Source of the DNA: Chitinophaga pinensis
Lineage (GTDB): Bacteria; Bacteroidota; Bacteroidia; Flavobacteriales_D; Crocinitomicaceae
DNA length: 64,000 nucleotides
Direction of reading: 5' to 3'
Assembly: GCA_945883825.1 (NCBI GenBank)
Contig: CAMCYF010000011.1
Span: forward strand, 1 to 64,000
A model generated the notes under the pieces. It was given only the letters and a program-made list of their open reading frames with translations. It did no database searches and had not been told where the DNA came from. Positions 40,492 to 47,793 of the stretch are shown one piece after another; the stretch's first letter is position 1; every line of letters begins with the position of its first letter. The translations under genes were made by a program, and so were the position numbers.

Positions 40492-41184
40492 CTATAGCTC
40501 TTCACTAAAAGTGTAGCCTACTCCTTTAATTGTTCTGATAACTGAATCCCCTAATTTTTCTCTTAATTTTCGAATGTGCACATCAATTGTTCGTTCGCCA
40601 ACAATTGTATCGTTACCCCAAACTATCGAAAGAATTTGATCTCTGTTAAAAACCTTACCTGGGCGACTTGCGAGTAACTCTAAAAGTTCAAATTCTTTTT
40701 TTGGTAAGATGATAGATAAACCATCTACTTCTATTAAAAATTTTTCTCTGTCAATTTTTATTTTTTTAGAAGGTGAATCAACATCGATTCTTTTTGTATT
40801 CTCAAACCTTCTTAACAAAGATTCTATTTTAGTAATCAATAAACGAGGGCGAATTGGTTTTGTGATATAATCATCAGCACCAGCTTCAAAACCTGCAATT
40901 TGAGCATAATCTTCAGCACGAGATGTTAAAAAAACAATAATGGGCTGCGCTAAATTTAAATCTTTTCGAATCATTTGACATGCTTCAATACCGTCTATTT
41001 TTGGCATCATCACATCTAAAATTATCAAGGATGGCATTATTTGCTGAGTTAATCGAACCCCCTCTTCTCCATTTGAAGCGGTAAATACTTTGTAACCTTC
41101 TTTCCTAATCGTATAAGATAGAAATTCTAAAATGTCTGGTTCGTCATCGACAAGTAAAATTGTATGCCCCCTTAAATTATCCAT
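40492..41184 (-). CDS. OmpR/PhoB-family response regulator
   Basis: The regulator has about 230 residues from the ATG at 41184 (MDNLRGHTILLVDDEP). A longer frame to 41211 would read through the terminator hairpin of the upstream gene, so I reject it. The receiver has DDEPD, phospho-Asp in LIILDVMMPKIDG and Lys in DYITKPI; the winged helix has LPKKEFELLELLASRPGKVF (in part), VGERTIDVHIRKLREKL and IRTIKGVGYTF. No kinase lies next to it. It is downstream of a T9SS protein and a TonB receptor whose promoters carry matching 11-base repeats, the spacing used by PhoB/PhoP-type factors. Confidence 0.93.
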   Translation of the reverse strand: MDNLRGHTILLVDDEPDILEFLSYTIRKEGYKVFTASNGEEGVRLTQQIMPSLIILDVMMPKIDGIEACQMIRKDLNLAQPIIVFLTSRAEDYAQIAGFEAGADDYITKPIRPRLLITKIESLLRRFENTKRIDVDSPSKKIKIDREKFLIEVDGLSIILPKKEFELLELLASRPGKVFNRDQILSIVWGNDTIVGERTIDVHIRKLREKLGDSVIRTIKGVGYTFSEEL

Positions 41185-41193
41185 TCTTTTATT

Positions 41194-41228
41194 TAAAAAA
41201 AGGGCTGCCAAAACTTTTAACAGCCCTT
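41194..41228 (-). terminator. Rho-independent terminator after the T9SS beta-helix-like gene
   Basis: Read on the minus strand, AAGGGCTG and CAGCCCTT form an eight-pair stem followed by a T run. It lies between the T9SS gene stop and the regulator start, so the regulator is expressed by read-through or from a promoter within the short gap. Confidence 0.85.
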
Positions 41229-41240
41229 ACTATTTACTTT

Positions 41241-42899
41241 TTATTTTGCAACTATAAAGCTTTTTGTGAAGCTTGAATTTTGCCCTACAAAAAGTATTGA
41301 ATACATGCCATTTGCTAAAGATGACACATTCATTGTTACAAAATTTTGATCTTCATCTTGAACATCTATTGTTTGAATGATTCTTCCAACTCGATCGCTT
41401 ACAAGAAGTTTAAATGCTGAACCACTTTGATTATCAAAAGCAACAACTAAATTCTCATTCGCAGGATTTGGATAAATCGAAATGTTATTTAATTCAATTG
41501 ATTCTTCAATTCCTCCTGTTATGTCTACAAAGAACTTCGGATGAGTAAATGAAGCACCTGAAGCTGCGGAAGAACCACTAGTCAATCGAGCATCTGGAGT
41601 TGTTCCAAGTGGTGCAAATAAATTTACCCAAGATACTTGAGATATAGATTGCGTTGAGTCATTTCCATCAGCACCCCAAAAAGAAGTATAGAAAGAACTT
41701 GTAGATGCAGCTCCACCGCTTGTACCAGCATTATAAACTGTATTTGTATTATTCGTGAAACCTGTAAGAACATTGTTAGAAAAAACCAAAGTGTCGGCAT
41801 TTACATTATTTACAACTGAAGTCCCTTCGATTGATAATCCTTTTTCCCAACCTACAACAAGGGAATTAAAACATGAAACAGCCGTATTTCTTCTCAAACG
41901 AAACGCTTTTTCGAACTTCTCACCCACTGGAAGAACTATTGAACCATTTCCTTTAGGTCCAACTAATGTAACGTTAGAAAAAATAGCGGCAGTTTTTGGT
42001 TGACCAGCAGAGCCTGCTGCATCATTATCTGATTCAAAACAATTGGAATCACCAATTGCATCAGAAACATCTTTATCACGAATTGCTAAGGCAAACTGTA
42101 TTTTTCCTCTAAAACCAAAGTCAGTATCAAAATCATCATCTAAACCTCTGTATGCAATAAGATGCTTACAATTAACAGTTCCTCCAAACCATTCAAATGA
42201 ATCATCCCCTGAATGAGAAACTTGAATAAAATCAATCGTTGTTGCAGATCCAACTGATCCAAAAGTTAAACCATTAATCTCCTTGTTAGGTTCTAATGCA
42301 ATACCAGCAAATTCAATTCGAACATATTTTAATGTGCCAGAATTATCGTTATCTAAACTTCCGCCGTACTCAGTATTATTTGTTGGAACGATTCCTTCAA
42401 TATTCGCTACACCACCCGGTTGATTGTTTCTTGCTAATCCTAGAAGAACAATACCACCCCAATCTCCTTCACTACGGTTGCCTATAGCTTCATTAGAAGT
42501 AAAAATAATTGGACTTGCTATTGTGCCAATTGCATTTAATTTAGATCCGCGTGTAACTAATAATGAACCTTGTGTCGCTTTGTCACCACGAATAATTGTT
42601 CCTGGTAGAATGGTTAAAGTAGCAGAGTTTGTTACATATATTTTATTCTGTAATAAAATAACACCACTCCAAGTTGTACTTGTTGTTATGTCTGTTGAAA
42701 CTGTAGTTGTTGTAGCTGGATAATCTGTATTTTCTGCATCAAAATTTGACCAGCCCGAAGTCCAATCTGATGCTGCAGTGTTATCCGTTACAGGAAATGC
42801 ACCTTTGTAGGTTGTTGGTGTCCAAAATGCATCTTGAGCGTGTAGGTTAATCCCCAAGCTTAATACAAAGCTTGCTAAGTAAATGTTTTTCTTTTTCAT
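41241..42899 (-). CDS. T9SS-exported protein, probable right-handed beta-helix, type A sorting domain
   Basis: The start is the ATG of MKKKNIYLASFVLSLGINLHAQ, a signal peptide; a TTG frame 24 bases upstream is less likely. The 552-residue protein has the ladder-like body TLTILPGTIIRGDKATQGSL, DWGGIVLLG, YGGSLDNDNSG, YVRIEFAGI, EWFGGTVNCKHLIAYRGLDD (in part), common in a Bacteroidota family often found near TonB receptors. The C-terminus SIYPNPANENLVV ... ANGMYSILFVG ... FTKSFIVAK is a type A T9SS sorting signal. It has its own promoter with phased repeats and its own terminator. Substrate unknown; phosphate-related uptake is a hypothesis. Confidence 0.88.
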   Translation of the reverse strand: MKKKNIYLASFVLSLGINLHAQDAFWTPTTYKGAFPVTDNTAASDWTSGWSNFDAENTDYPATTTTVSTDITTSTTWSGVILLQNKIYVTNSATLTILPGTIIRGDKATQGSLLVTRGSKLNAIGTIASPIIFTSNEAIGNRSEGDWGGIVLLGLARNNQPGGVANIEGIVPTNNTEYGGSLDNDNSGTLKYVRIEFAGIALEPNKEINGLTFGSVGSATTIDFIQVSHSGDDSFEWFGGTVNCKHLIAYRGLDDDFDTDFGFRGKIQFALAIRDKDVSDAIGDSNCFESDNDAAGSAGQPKTAAIFSNVTLVGPKGNGSIVLPVGEKFEKAFRLRRNTAVSCFNSLVVGWEKGLSIEGTSVVNNVNADTLVFSNNVLTGFTNNTNTVYNAGTSGGAASTSSFYTSFWGADGNDSTQSISQVSWVNLFAPLGTTPDARLTSGSSAASGASFTHPKFFVDITGGIEESIELNNISIYPNPANENLVVAFDNQSGSAFKLLVSDRVGRIIQTIDVQDEDQNFVTMNVSSLANGMYSILFVGQNSSFTKSFIVAK

Positions 42900-42961
42900 A
42901 ATATTTTTTTTTAGTTGGAACAAAATTCCACAGAAAAAGAAGTTGCCATGTTACACGATAT

Positions 42962-42988
42962 TTAAATGTTCTTTAAGTTTAGGTTAAG
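42962..42988 (-). promoter_or_regulatory. Phased TTAA(A/G) direct repeats upstream of the T9SS gene
   Basis: On the + strand TTAAA (42962), TTAAG (42973) and TTAAG (42984) are spaced exactly 11 bases apart. The first repeat is 63 bases upstream of the minus-strand ATG. The same triad occurs before the TonB receptor. Confidence 0.65.
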
Positions 42989-43030
42989 AACTATCGGTAT
43001 TTTGTTAACATTAGAAAAAAGCGGGAATTA

Positions 43031-45877
43031 TTAGAAATTGTATTTTAATGACATAGAAACAGTTTGCCCAAACGTTATTTCTTGCCAAGCACTGTCAGTG
43101 CCTTTATCATACTTCTTATTTTTATTTATATCTTGGAAATAGATTAAATCTTGTGCAAGTAAATCCTTAATATTTAATTTTAATTCTAATTTATTCTTAA
43201 ACATTTTGGAAATCTGAAAGTCGATTACATTTCTACCATTCTCCCAAACACTAGGTTCTTGAATACTACCAGCAATAGCAATTCTTTGACCTACTAAATT
43301 ATAAGACAAACTAAAATTAACATCCTTAGGAGCTGAATAATATATACCTGCATTAATAATATAAGGAGATTGGCCTTGTAATGGTCTTGCGGAATTAGTA
43401 TATTCTGCTTGACCTGCATACATACTTAAATCTACACTTGAACGAATAATTGAAGCATTTGCATAAAGTGTGATATCCTTTAAGAACGAAGTGGAAGCTT
43501 TAGAATCAATCAGTTCAAGATTCATTCTAAATTCAAATTCAGCGCCATAATTTTTTGTGTTTCCTACATTGTCATATTTTAGTTCTGGTGCTCCAGATGT
43601 TCCGGTTCCTAAAATCAATTCAATTGGATTGGTAAATTGCTTGTAGAATGCCGAGACACTAAAAATTTGTCCAGCACCAGGAAAAAATTCAAATCTAGCA
43701 TCAAAATTATTAATTGATGCTCTCTTTAATGTGGGGTCTCCTGATGTTAAATTGTCATTCAAGAAATTGTAAAAGGAAAATGGTGCTAACTCTCTAAATT
43801 CAGGTCGAGAAAGTGTTTTTGACGCACTCAAGCGAAAATTCGCTTTATTAGTAAGTGAATAAATTAAATTCACGGAAGGTAATATATCAACAACAGTTGT
43901 ATCAATATTTTGCTGAAGATTAGAACCAAATTCTATATATTTAAAATTCTGACGATAAGACTCTATGCGAGCACCTCCAACAATTCTTAGTTTTTCAGCA
44001 ATTTTTGTATCGAACATGGCATAAGCAGTATTTAAAATCGAAAATGCTTGGTAACTGTCATCTACATTTGTTCCTTCTTCTAATTTAAAACCACCTTGAC
44101 CATCAGCCATTAAACCTAAATTTGAATTTGAAAAGATTTGGTCTTCAGGTAATGATAATAATTGGTCATTAAAATTTAAGCTTCCTGCTGGATTGTATTT
44201 CGAAAAACCTAAATTTCTCGATTCGAAAGAACGCGTTCGGTATTGATGCATCCCCCCCATTTTAAGTTCCGTCTTTGTATTCAAGAACTCAAGAGGAATA
44301 GAAAGATCATATTTCGCACTTACTATTTTTTCATTTAGCAGCGACCAAAACATATTTCCAGCACCAAGTGTTGAAATATCATTATTTTGTATGACTGCAG
44401 CAAATGGAAGGGCTGTATCTGTTTGCTGGTATACTGTTCTTCTTAGAAAAGGGACTTCACGTTTCACATCACTAATGCCAGCTATCCATTTAAATTTTAT
44501 TTTATTTTTAAATTCATGATTTCCAAGAAATTGAGAACTTACAAGCTTATTTTGCGTGTACCAAATATTAGTTGATTTCTCAGATAAAACTGATTCAATA
44601 TCCATGTCTCGCTTTCCATTTCGAATATTCACTTTGTCATCTGAGGAAAGCGAATAAAGTGTTTTTAATTGAAGGGAATTATTATTGTTTAGTTTATATT
44701 TCATATTAAACATCGCACTGTTTAATACAGACTGAGTATACGCTGAATCTTTTAATTCATTTTTAGTGATAACTCCTGCTGCTGACTCTTCAAATTCTCT
44801 TCTTGTAACTTTATTAAAACTCATGTTGCTTTGGTAATTGTAAGCAAATACATAACCGAAATTTCGCTCCTCAGCTAACTTAATTGTTTTCCCGATGCTG
44901 TATTGCAAATTTAGATTTGGTAAAGCAAAACGACTATATGTCCCCCAACTATTTGGAATTGATTTAGCATATTCTGCTTTTTGAAGAGCGGAAAGATTAT
45001 TAAAATCTTCTGTTGATGGTAAACCAGATGGAAGAGTTCTTGAAGAAGAACTAAAGCCCAAAAAGTCTGTTTTGCTTCCATCGTATGTTTTAAAATCTTT
45101 AAAAGTTGTAATTAGATTGTAAGAACTTCCTATTTGGATACTTTGAAAATCATTTTCCTTGGGTTCAGTTGTATTGATATCAATTACACCACCAGCAAAT
45201 TCTCCTGGTAAATCTGGTGTTGCTGTCTTAATAATCACTAAATTATCTAACATATTTGAAGGGAAGACATCAAAAGAGAATGCCTTTCGATCACTTTCAG
45301 AACTTGGTAAAGGGGCACCGTTGATTAAGGCAAAATTGTAACGATCACTTAAGCCCCTTACAACAACAAATTTATTATCCTGGACACTTGCTCCACTAAT
45401 TCTTTTTAAAACATCTGAAGCTTTTGAATCGGGGGTCTTTTTAAATGTCTCTGATGTAATTCCATCTACAACTGTTGCGCTATTTCTTTGTAGTCTTAAT
45501 ATTTCAGTTGTTGATTCTCTATTAACTTTCGCTTTAACAGTAACAGGACCAAATTCTAGAATAACTTTATCTAAGGGAATATTTAAAACTAAATTCTCGT
45601 TTTCTTTTAATTTTATTTCCGTTAAAATTAGGTTGTTGTATGTTTCATTTCGAACTTCCAATATGTAAGTTCCTGCGCTTAAACCTTTCAAAGAATAATT
45701 TCCATCACCATCCGCTACAGCACCTTTTCCTAGTCCTTGAAGAATTACTTTTGCACCAAATAAAGCTTCATTCGTTTTAGAATCTGTTATTTTTCCGCTT
45801 AGGGAAGCATTTTGAGAAAATGAATAAGAAATTAAAAAACAAGTAGTTAAAAAGGTTAATAAAGACTTAAAATGCAT
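43031..45877 (-). CDS. TonB-dependent outer-membrane receptor with CarboxypepD_reg-like N-terminal domain
   Basis: The 948-residue receptor has a signal peptide (to SYSFSQ), a carboxypeptidase regulatory-like domain (about 25-105, NASLSGKITDSKTNEALFGA in part), and a plug (RISGASVQDNKFVVVRGLSD, NGAPLPSSE, FDVFPSNMLDNLVIIKTATPD in part). A long beta-barrel follows, ending in the aromatic MSLKYNF. These features mark active uptake of a ligand across the outer membrane. It is upstream of the T9SS protein and the PhoB-type regulator on the same strand, with its own phased-repeat promoter. The ligand cannot be read from the sequence. Confidence 0.93.
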   Translation of the reverse strand: MHFKSLLTFLTTCFLISYSFSQNASLSGKITDSKTNEALFGAKVILQGLGKGAVADGDGNYSLKGLSAGTYILEVRNETYNNLILTEIKLKENENLVLNIPLDKVILEFGPVTVKAKVNRESTTEILRLQRNSATVVDGITSETFKKTPDSKASDVLKRISGASVQDNKFVVVRGLSDRYNFALINGAPLPSSESDRKAFSFDVFPSNMLDNLVIIKTATPDLPGEFAGGVIDINTTEPKENDFQSIQIGSSYNLITTFKDFKTYDGSKTDFLGFSSSSRTLPSGLPSTEDFNNLSALQKAEYAKSIPNSWGTYSRFALPNLNLQYSIGKTIKLAEERNFGYVFAYNYQSNMSFNKVTRREFEESAAGVITKNELKDSAYTQSVLNSAMFNMKYKLNNNNSLQLKTLYSLSSDDKVNIRNGKRDMDIESVLSEKSTNIWYTQNKLVSSQFLGNHEFKNKIKFKWIAGISDVKREVPFLRRTVYQQTDTALPFAAVIQNNDISTLGAGNMFWSLLNEKIVSAKYDLSIPLEFLNTKTELKMGGMHQYRTRSFESRNLGFSKYNPAGSLNFNDQLLSLPEDQIFSNSNLGLMADGQGGFKLEEGTNVDDSYQAFSILNTAYAMFDTKIAEKLRIVGGARIESYRQNFKYIEFGSNLQQNIDTTVVDILPSVNLIYSLTNKANFRLSASKTLSRPEFRELAPFSFYNFLNDNLTSGDPTLKRASINNFDARFEFFPGAGQIFSVSAFYKQFTNPIELILGTGTSGAPELKYDNVGNTKNYGAEFEFRMNLELIDSKASTSFLKDITLYANASIIRSSVDLSMYAGQAEYTNSARPLQGQSPYIINAGIYYSAPKDVNFSLSYNLVGQRIAIAGSIQEPSVWENGRNVIDFQISKMFKNKLELKLNIKDLLAQDLIYFQDINKNKKYDKGTDSAWQEITFGQTVSMSLKYNF

Positions 45878-45932
45878 AAGATAGAAGTATTAAAATTGTA
45901 TGCAAAGAAACTGCCTTATCGTAATGCTAAAA

Positions 45933-45959
45933 TTAAAATAAGGTTAAGGTTATATTAAG
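45933..45959 (-). promoter_or_regulatory. Phased TTAA(A/G) direct repeats upstream of the TonB receptor
   Basis: On the + strand TTAAA (45933), TTAAG (45944) and TTAAG (45955) repeat at 11-base intervals, the same order and spacing as at 42962-42988. The first repeat is 56 bases from the minus-strand ATG. The rest of the 292-base gap is A+T-rich with no further clear signal. Confidence 0.65.
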
Positions 45960-46169: not shown

Positions 46170-47177
46170 ATGTCCTATTTATATCTTTTATTTTTATCAG
46201 TAGCAATTTTTTGTTATTCAACTTCTTACACCCAAAACAAAGTAGTATTTATTGAAGGTAAAGCTCAAGGAACAACTTATCACATTACCTATTACGAAAA
46301 GCAAGATCGGAATTTTGAAGATGAAATTTCAAAACTCTTATTTGAATTTGATTTATCGCTTTCAACCTACAATCCAAATTCTCTTATCTCGAAGATTAAT
46401 AATAATGAAAAAGATGTTGTACTTGATGACTATTTTCTCACATGTTTTAAAAAAGGAAAAGAGTTATGGAAAAATACAAATGGGTCATTTGACCCAACCG
46501 TATATCCATTGGTAAATGCTTGGGGCTTTGGACCAAAGGAAAAAATTGTTGTTACAAAAGAAAAAATCGACAGTATTTTAGCATTTGTAGGTTTTGAATT
46601 AATCAACATTAAAGAAGGAAAAATTGTAAAAACTGATCCCCGTGTTTCACTTGATTTTAATGCTTTTGCACAAGGATACTCAGTTGATATTGTTCGGCAA
46701 TTTTTTAATGCTAAGAATATTGACTCCTACATCATTGAAATTGGTGGAGAAGTGTATGCAAAAGGACTAAACGACAAAGATTCTTGGTTAGTTGGTATAG
46801 AAATCCCTATTGCCAATCAAAAAAGTTTAAATTCTTATCATACAATTGTAAAACTTGAAAATAAAGCAATTGCAACTTCTGGAAATTATAGACGCTATAT
46901 TATAGAAAATGGCGAAAAAATAGTGCATCATATCGACCCTAAAACTGGATATCCAACAAAAAACAATTTACTAAGCGTTACAATTATTTCAGACTCATGT
47001 ATTATTTCAGATGCAACTGCAACAGGAATTTTGGTTATGGGTTTAAAAAAATCAAAGAAATACCTCAAAAAAAACAAGGAAATTGAGGCTTTGATAATTT
47101 ATATGGATAGAAGAGGAATCTATAAAACTTTCCTTTCAGATGGTTTTCAAAAGTTCATTATTAGTACAGAAAATTAA
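46170..47177 (+). CDS. apbE: FAD:protein FMN transferase (ApbE family)
   Basis: The 335-residue exported protein (signal peptide to YTQN) attaches FMN covalently to Ser/Thr of target proteins in the periplasm. It has EGKAQGTTYHITYY, STYNPNSLISKIN, DPTVYPLVNAWGFGP, DFNAFAQGYSVD, EIGGEVYAKG, SGNYRRYI, HHIDPKTGYPT and ISDATATGILVMG, matching ApbE blocks. It runs convergently toward a DUF2271 gene whose product has a candidate TTGAT acceptor site, so the pair may be enzyme and substrate. Confidence 0.93.
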   Translation: MSYLYLLFLSVAIFCYSTSYTQNKVVFIEGKAQGTTYHITYYEKQDRNFEDEISKLLFEFDLSLSTYNPNSLISKINNNEKDVVLDDYFLTCFKKGKELWKNTNGSFDPTVYPLVNAWGFGPKEKIVVTKEKIDSILAFVGFELINIKEGKIVKTDPRVSLDFNAFAQGYSVDIVRQFFNAKNIDSYIIEIGGEVYAKGLNDKDSWLVGIEIPIANQKSLNSYHTIVKLENKAIATSGNYRRYIIENGEKIVHHIDPKTGYPTKNNLLSVTIISDSCIISDATATGILVMGLKKSKKYLKKNKEIEALIIYMDRRGIYKTFLSDGFQKFIISTEN

Positions 47178-47220
47178 GGTGCTTAATTACTGCTGGCGAA
47201 GAATTTGAAAATAGTTAAGC

Positions 47221-47793
47221 TTAATCTTTCTTTTCAGGATTTTCAATAATTTCAGCACTTAAAGGATTCCATGAAAGTATAATAGCATCAAAATTAGCAT
47301 CTGCTGCTGGAGACTGTGCATCAGCATTTGGACCTTTCACAAATGAAAAAGACCTAACTACTGTTCCATTTGCACTGTGATTCCAAGTCTCTTCAATGGA
47401 AATTTTATAAATACCATCAGGGAGAAGATTCCCATTGACATCTGTTCCATCCCATGTAACAGATCTATTACCAAAACTTGCTAAAGTCGCGCCAGTGGTT
47501 GCACTAACAACATTACAGTTTGCAGCAATTGCATTTGAAGCAGCACCACCTGAATTAACCGCCCAAGTTTGTAAATGATCTCTCGTAACAGAGCCAACAT
47601 TTCTAGATATTGTTTTTACAAATTGACCTAAATCTGATTGAATCCAAACCGCAAGAACGTGTTTCCCATAATTATTATACGTTGCAGAAGCTGGTTTGCT
47701 TACTTCATTAAAGCTAAATGTCAAAGTTCCTGCTGTTTGTGCTATTCCAGAAAATGTAAATCCTAATGAGATAATAAATGCAATTTTTTTCAT
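47221..47793 (-). CDS. DUF2271 family periplasmic protein, candidate flavinylation target
   Basis: The 190-residue protein has a signal peptide (to SGIAQ). KHVLAVWIQSDLGQFVKTI, WDGTDVNGNLLPDGIYKI and an Ig-like FlgD-type fold mark DUF2271. SATTGATLAS (residues 97-106) fits the (S/T)GA(S/T) core of ApbE flavinylation sites, with Thr103 as the possible FMN acceptor; the preceding Asp of the full consensus is Ser here. It is the last gene of the DUF5777-YceI-membrane-cytochrome operon and faces apbE across 43 bases. Confidence 0.8.
   Translation of the reverse strand: MKKIAFIISLGFTFSGIAQTAGTLTFSFNEVSKPASATYNNYGKHVLAVWIQSDLGQFVKTISRNVGSVTRDHLQTWAVNSGGAASNAIAANCNVVSATTGATLASFGNRSVTWDGTDVNGNLLPDGIYKISIEETWNHSANGTVVRSFSFVKGPNADAQSPAADANFDAIILSWNPLSAEIIENPEKKD

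Follow-up and report, generated by a model that had tools for sequence, protein, structure and literature searches.

The stretch examined here (the window) comprises 64,000 nucleotides of contig CAMCYF010000011.1, from an assembly filed under Chitinophaga pinensis, and it is located on contig C11 of a 2.16-Mb genome (46 contigs, 99.79% complete) that is assigned to the Bacteroidota on the basis of its relatives. On its minus strand, the order of transcription is a TonB-dependent receptor, a secreted protein with a type 9 secretion system (T9SS) sorting domain, and an OmpR/PhoB-type response regulator. The first two genes are each preceded by the same triad of short repeats in 11-bp phase, raising the question of which protein recognizes these repeats and in response to which signal. 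With a probability of roughly 0.85, the two triads are Pho boxes of the neighboring PhoB-like regulator, which would place the receptor and the T9SS protein under phosphate-starvation control; this assignment is drawn from comparative sequence analysis.

Tandem half-sites and their distance to the promoter

The first-pass annotation had reported TTAAA/TTAAG/TTAAG on the plus strand at 42962/42973/42984 and at 45933/45944/45955, with an 11-base period, and both sets are confirmed. Its distances of 63 and 56 to the start codons are right within one, as 62 bases intervene before the ATG at 42899 and 55 before the ATG at 45877. Read on the minus strand, i.e., in the orientation of the genes, both triads are TTAA-N7-TTAA-N7-TTAA. 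In both promoters, a weaker fourth half-site lies 11 bp beyond the triad and is followed by the TTTG of a −7 box, which we take to be the Bacteroidota element TAnnTTTG.

45922..45959, minus strand: putative Pho box of the TonB gene; TTAA at 45958-45955, 45947-45944 and 45936-45933, degenerate fourth half-site TTA at 45924-45922
45903..45906, minus strand: TTTG belonging to the putative −7 box of the TonB gene, at offset 52 when counted from the first TTAA
42951..42988, minus strand: putative Pho box of the T9SS gene; TTAA at 42987-42984, 42976-42973 and 42965-42962, fourth half-site TAA at 42953-42951
42921..42924, minus strand: TTTG belonging to the putative −7 box of the T9SS gene, at offset 63 when counted from the first TTAA

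Direct repeats of 11-bp period that are bound by winged-helix response regulators before phosphate-starvation genes are exemplified by the TTAACA-type repeats of Bacillus subtilis PhoP and by the Escherichia coli Pho box. The half-site letters of the E. coli Pho box differ from those in the window, and both species have a core promoter different from that of Bacteroidota.

Relatives of the locus were collected by scanning GTDB genomes with the T9SS protein, and the best 80 of 485 relatives were retained. A TonB match is present at 76 of the 80 and a regulator match at 56, with several loci stopping at contig ends. Promoter counts exclude loci without an assignable TonB or T9SS start and those in which it lies less than 60 nt from a contig end. 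With the window included, the exact triad is found upstream of 33 of 62 usable TonB starts and 18 of 79 usable T9SS starts. With the first TTAA as the reference point, the offset of TTTG is 52 in 32 of the 33 triad-bearing TonB promoters and 63 in 17 of the 18 T9SS promoters, the exceptions being the distant loci L064 and L066. The two offsets differ by exactly 11 bp, which keeps the half-sites on one face of the helix with respect to the core promoter. This fixed phasing is the strongest argument for an activator site.

The triads are concentrated before the genes in question. In the 200-nt upstream regions of the fetched loci (window excluded), they occur before 36 of 64 TonB genes, 16 of 75 T9SS genes and 7 of 27 regulator genes versus 1 of 472 other genes, where genes with too little free upstream sequence were dropped from the background; these rows are mutually related, and Fisher values are not to be read literally. 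Clustering at 70% TonB identity yields 30 clusters, 25 of which have an 11-bp pair before the TonB gene and 11 of which have a triad. The histogram of TTAA spacings peaks at 11 for both genes (1.84 per TonB region and 0.93 per T9SS region vs 0.24 in the background), and the smaller background peak is fed by phosphate genes and by the sequences upstream of the regulator, a pair or triad being present in 15 of 27 of the latter. A matrix built from 45 sites of the same two genes in relatives, with the window excluded, ranks the two window sites first and second in the 64 kb, with scores of 24.4 and 22.6; the best non-overlapping score elsewhere in the window is 7.3.

Within the window, TTAAR-N6-TTAAR-N6-TTAAR occurs twice against an expectation of 0.05, a count reached in 1 of 100 shuffles. 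When the fourth half-site is added to the triad (TAA, offset 34), the T9SS-gene site is the sole exact match in the genome, and the TonB site is one mismatch away. The motif searches were confined to TTAA-type words, and weaker sites could escape them.

Repeats before phosphate genes and relation to known systems

The same repeats recur before phosphate genes in other Bacteroidota. A TTAAY pair or triad is present in 30 of the 472 other upstream regions of the relatives, and 9 of these 30, across four loci, precede genes read as phosphate uptake genes. In a Pfam scan of seven of the nine, a binding protein is recognized in L064 and L080, a permease domain in L064, Porin_O_P and PHO4 (Pit) in L078, and DUF47 (PhoU_div) in L085. 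The porin-like gene of L064 has no Pfam match, its binding protein scores above the NCBIfam PstS cut-off, and a PstC-like permease is among the pair-carrying genes in distant relatives. A second sample, the 30 PstS matches returned with loci for the class Bacteroidia, was picked independently of the TonB locus; here, TTAAY-N6-TTAAY precedes pstS in 9 loci (base-shuffle mean 0.2, maximum 3), and the commonest TTAA spacing is 11.

A scan of 60 genomes of the family with a four-half-site pattern gives 31 matches in 21 genomes versus 8 for the reversed control. In the present genome, this pattern matches the TonB site and a site on contig C5 and misses the T9SS site, where two half-sites lack a following C or T. 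Among the 30 rows with loci, some of which overlap, 7 stand before TonB homologues, 3 before T9SS-like homologues, and 2 before genes for choice-of-anchor I proteins (choice_anch_I); of two further rows, one is flanked by a regulator and a porin and the other by a porin and a DUF47 gene. Fitting rows number 13 if one choice_anch_I row is counted and 14 if both are; 16 rows are other or unassigned, 7 of these beside no called gene. The sites combine three features of a Pho box, i.e., tandem half-sites with an 11-bp period, a fixed core-promoter position, and presence before phosphate genes in the lineage.

The three genes of the window have the following coordinates and domains.

43031..45877, minus strand: TonB-dependent receptor, 948 amino acids (PF13715, PF07715, PF00593), ATG at 45877
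41241..42899, minus strand: secreted protein, 552 amino acids from the ATG at 42899, with the type 9 secretion sorting domain PF18962
40492..41184, minus strand: PhoB-like response regulator (Response_reg and Trans_reg_C), likely start ATG 41184, with an earlier TTG at 41211 also listed

A similar set is clustered in Flavobacterium johnsoniae, where the PhoBR cluster/PUSIV (Fjoh_0543-0546) groups PhoB with a TonB transporter (pf07715, pf13715) and a surface protein (IPR011050), all three of which are induced on phosphate depletion (PMC8115612). If the first figure in Table 1 of that work is taken as the log2 change on depletion of inorganic phosphate, a reading of the column that is our own, the entries under the PhoBR operon are 3.06 for PhoB (Fjoh_0544), 8.02 for the TonB-dependent transporter (Fjoh_0545), and 9.91 for FII (Fjoh_0546, IPR011050). 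The two loci differ in that the surface protein is called a lipoprotein in F. johnsoniae and carries a T9SS sorting domain in the window, and in that PhoR has a neighboring locus tag in F. johnsoniae, whereas the presumed kinase is on another contig here. The words "motif" and "promoter" do not occur in the main text of PMC8115612. FI, FII, and FIII are 31-36% identical to a Caulobacter lipoprotein of low-phosphate conditions (PMC8115612, citing PMC2996285). ElpS of Caulobacter crescentus is a phosphate-starvation surface lipoprotein linked to phosphatase activity; it is released in a manner dependent on the type 2 secretion system (PMC2996285).

For Riemerella anatipestifer PhoP, DNA affinity purification sequencing (DAP-seq) yielded 583 peaks covering the upstream regions of 764 genes, with TTTAACA as the most conserved bases (PMC9603813). 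This word contains the half-site TTAAC, and PhoP binds upstream of its own operon there; the text consulted of that account contains no 11-bp triad, promoter phasing or cross-species comparison. The Pho box of the pst operon is treated in general terms in PMC3547664. The kind of system proposed here is already known; its 11-bp, promoter-anchored description across Bacteroidota and the hairpin described below were not found in the literature searched. That search, which left subscription literature mostly outside, turned up no publication in which 11-bp phasing defines the Pho box of Bacteroidota or in which a hairpin before phoB is described.

In the proposed mechanism, phosphate shortage would lead a PhoR/PnpS-like kinase (G000:C28) to phosphorylate the regulator encoded at 40492-41184. 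The regulator would then occupy the 11-bp-phased TTAA half-sites that directly precede the −7 box, with two dimers arranged head to tail probably covering the four half-sites, and would recruit RNA polymerase to switch on the TonB receptor and the T9SS protein. At the cell surface, the two proteins may jointly capture phosphate or some phosphorylated compound. Transcription reading through the hairpin terminator that closes the T9SS gene would probably supply the regulator itself. Bacteroidota are important degraders of organic phosphorus, and their phosphate-starvation genes have been found by expression studies (e.g., PMC8115612). With an operator defined as TTAA half-sites that recur every 11 bp and keep a constant spacing to the −7 box, Pho regulons could be predicted from the sequence of uncultured genomes, and a TonB receptor and a T9SS protein would be tied to phosphate.

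Weighing the assignment and its rivals

Several results weigh against the assignment. Genome-wide, TTAA-N7-TTAA-N7-TTAA occurs at 8 places versus 13 for the reversed control, the TTAAR triad has 3+2 matches versus 2+6, and the four-half-site pattern with up to two mismatches has 77+79 (156) versus 130+150 (280), such that only the best matches are informative. The exact triad is missing at 29 of 62 TonB and 61 of 79 T9SS starts, and 21 of the 30 pstS loci lack TTAAY-N6-TTAAY. The matrix was made from the same two promoters in relatives and consequently expresses conservation, not independent recognition. The regulator scores 200.4 bits against the Bacteroidota PhoB model NCBIfam NF053854, below its cut-off of 270, although this is still its best curated match, and a second PhoB-like regulator in the genome has nearly the same recognition stretch. 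The single Pit gene of the genome, which sits beside a gene read by resemblance as DUF47, was considered as a target; this operon has no box, and its best matrix score is 3.6. Finally, the likeness to the F. johnsoniae cluster rests on gene order and domains, and PhoR (Fjoh_0543, 0.76) and OprP (−1.3) of that cluster are not induced (PMC8115612).

The first-pass annotation had held that a triad common at random intergenic sites would speak against its reading, and the genome-wide counts partly bear this objection out. The bare triad is not rare genome-wide, whereas four half-sites in 11-bp phase with a −7 box are, and this longer promoter-anchored pattern escapes the objection. The remaining triad and one-mismatch places in the genome, considered as further targets, lie before, against or inside mixed genes with no apparent common theme. 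The convincing sites found in the genome are these two only.

It is unlikely, yet the most serious alternative, that the main protein binding there is the second PhoB-like regulator (C7:32857-33525) or that both regulators bind. The C7 regulator and the neighboring one have RTIDVHIRKLREK in common, and relatives of the former stand directly upstream of the TonB gene in nine loci (L037, L040, L042, L043, L045, L046, L049, L053, and L076), eight of which are in the regulator tree and group with C7 (100/100). In contrast, relatives of the neighboring regulator are those matched at the 56 loci. The regulator gene (>65% identity) follows the T9SS gene in 37 of these and precedes the TonB gene in 17, where it runs in the opposite direction at a distance of some 2-3 kb; the other 2 are weak matches. 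The 7 regulator upstream regions that carry triads belong to loci in which regulator and TonB genes are divergent. Moreover, the C7 copy is away from the locus, and none of the four HisKA kinases of the genome is on its contig. The neighboring regulator, whose receiver and Trans_reg_C winged helix place it in the OmpR/PhoB family, is the best of eight NF053854 matches in the genome, none of which is above the cut-off. It falls inside the syntenic clade of the tree (support 99/93), apart from C7; the tree is flagged for long branches and unsettled bootstrap.

In relatives, the kinase neighborhood is consistent with the assignment to the neighboring regulator. With regulator matches below 65% identity excluded, 35 of the 37 loci of this gene order have a kinase homologue no more than 150 nt behind the regulator; of the two exceptions, one locus stops at a contig end and the other has the kinase approximately 0.9 kb away. 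The kinase also adjoins the regulator in each of the three genus mates examined. Its likely orthologue in the present genome is on contig C28 (L100:1144-2217, L157:4048-5121), not beside the regulator, such that either the two genes have become separated or the assembly contains an error. The C28 kinase is 62-66% identical to four relatives' kinases and 53% to a fifth, and its best NCBIfam match is PnpS (244 bits, below the cut-off of 400). The gene after it, presumably xseA, resembles the gene after the kinase in L020 and others.

Less probable still is a PhoB/OmpR-type site that answers to a signal other than phosphate, such as redox or iron. In the Riemerella study, the PhoP motif is described as resembling the E. 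coli ArcA motif, and redox is discussed (PMC9603813). In the present genome, no match was found to PhoU (PF01895) or PstS (TIGR02136), which a Pst-PhoU-coupled Pho system would have, or to a Na/Pi cotransporter. The enrichment before pstS and other phosphate genes that the first-pass annotation had proposed to look for is seen in other genomes (9 of 30 pstS loci), this genome having given no pstS or phoU match. However, the same repeat precedes PstS, Pit, porin, and DUF47 genes in other Bacteroidota, and the similarly ordered F. johnsoniae cluster is induced by phosphate depletion, with such loci tightly repressed under nitrogen and iron limitation (PMC8115612). An AT-rich coincidence or a structural promoter element (UP-element-like, or bending) with no dedicated regulator would suit the genome-wide counts below control and is very improbable in view of the fixed −7 box distance, the conservation of the sites, the single triad among 472 other genes, and the recurrence before phosphate genes.

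A hairpin before the regulator gene, and neighboring features

The gap between the T9SS gene and the regulator contains the following element.

41200..41228, minus strand: terminator-like hairpin (13 pairs, fold z = −3.6) with a T run behind it, at a distance of 15 nt from the regulator ATG

A terminator-like hairpin is present in 34 of the 35 T9SS-regulator gaps scored in relatives versus 18 of 155 other same-strand gene gaps, again with regulator matches below 65% identity left out. In the sole miss among these gaps (L006-L076), L006, a hairpin is still visible. The stem ends 9-19 nt before the regulator ATG in the relatives, and the hairpin is conserved although the stem sequences differ; all three genus mates have it with a T run. 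Little room for a promoter is left between hairpin and regulator start. An internal promoter at the end of the T9SS gene was considered and is not favored, as TAnnTTTG occurs in 6 of 37 such ends versus 92 of 561 others, i.e., with no excess.

The arrangement suggests that the regulator's own target, the T9SS gene, is the source of read-through transcripts from which the regulator is produced; an unrecognised promoter or a processed transcript may provide it instead. The first-pass annotation had taken the triads as the regulator's binding sites and united the three genes in one nutrient-starvation regulon, perhaps for phosphate. The conserved phased sites, the regulator-kinase neighborhood, the recurrence before pst, Pit, and porin genes, and the induction in F. 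johnsoniae favor that reading, which requires amendment for the regulator gene, since here no box belongs to this gene itself and the hairpin stands in front of it. Tentatively, the locus may represent a Pho system that lacks Pst and PhoU; the regulator (and, in relatives, the kinase as well) would be encoded behind its own target and gated by the conserved hairpin. Drive by read-through only would give a damped positive feedback, and divergent shared boxes could do the same in some distant Bacteroidota. If true, the conserved hairpin would be a simple feedback design.

The T9SS protein is possibly a parallel β-helix; its predicted structure is of moderate confidence (mean predicted local distance difference test score, pLDDT, 67.6). 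In a structure search against the PDB, tailspikes match weakly (template modelling score approximately 0.2) and folds resembling the sorting domain match better, while a sequence search against the PDB gives a single weak match, to a sorting domain. The protein is longer in many close relatives (842-1199 amino acids in those listed vs 552 in the window), and the alignment of many relatives ends at its residue 457.

The C5 site mentioned above is a four-half-site match located approximately 155 nt upstream of a gene for a 1565-amino-acid choice-of-anchor I protein (L156:538-5235, minus strand), with a matrix score of 16.5. Another genome of the family (L152/L172) has a strong site at −83 of a choice_anch_I gene. 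Membership of choice_anch_I in the regulon as a third component is doubtful, given that such scores (16.5 and 24.0) are reached in only 2 of the 20 starts examined, 3 fragment rows of 23 having been left out. A further start, L174, has an exact triad at −185 and a poor best score (3.0). Two genus mates possess choice_anch_I, and no pair precedes it in either.

On the other side of the TonB gene, positions 46170-47793 of the window hold a divergently oriented gene for ApbE, a flavin mononucleotide transferase, followed by a DUF2271/FlgD-Ig-like gene on the opposite strand.

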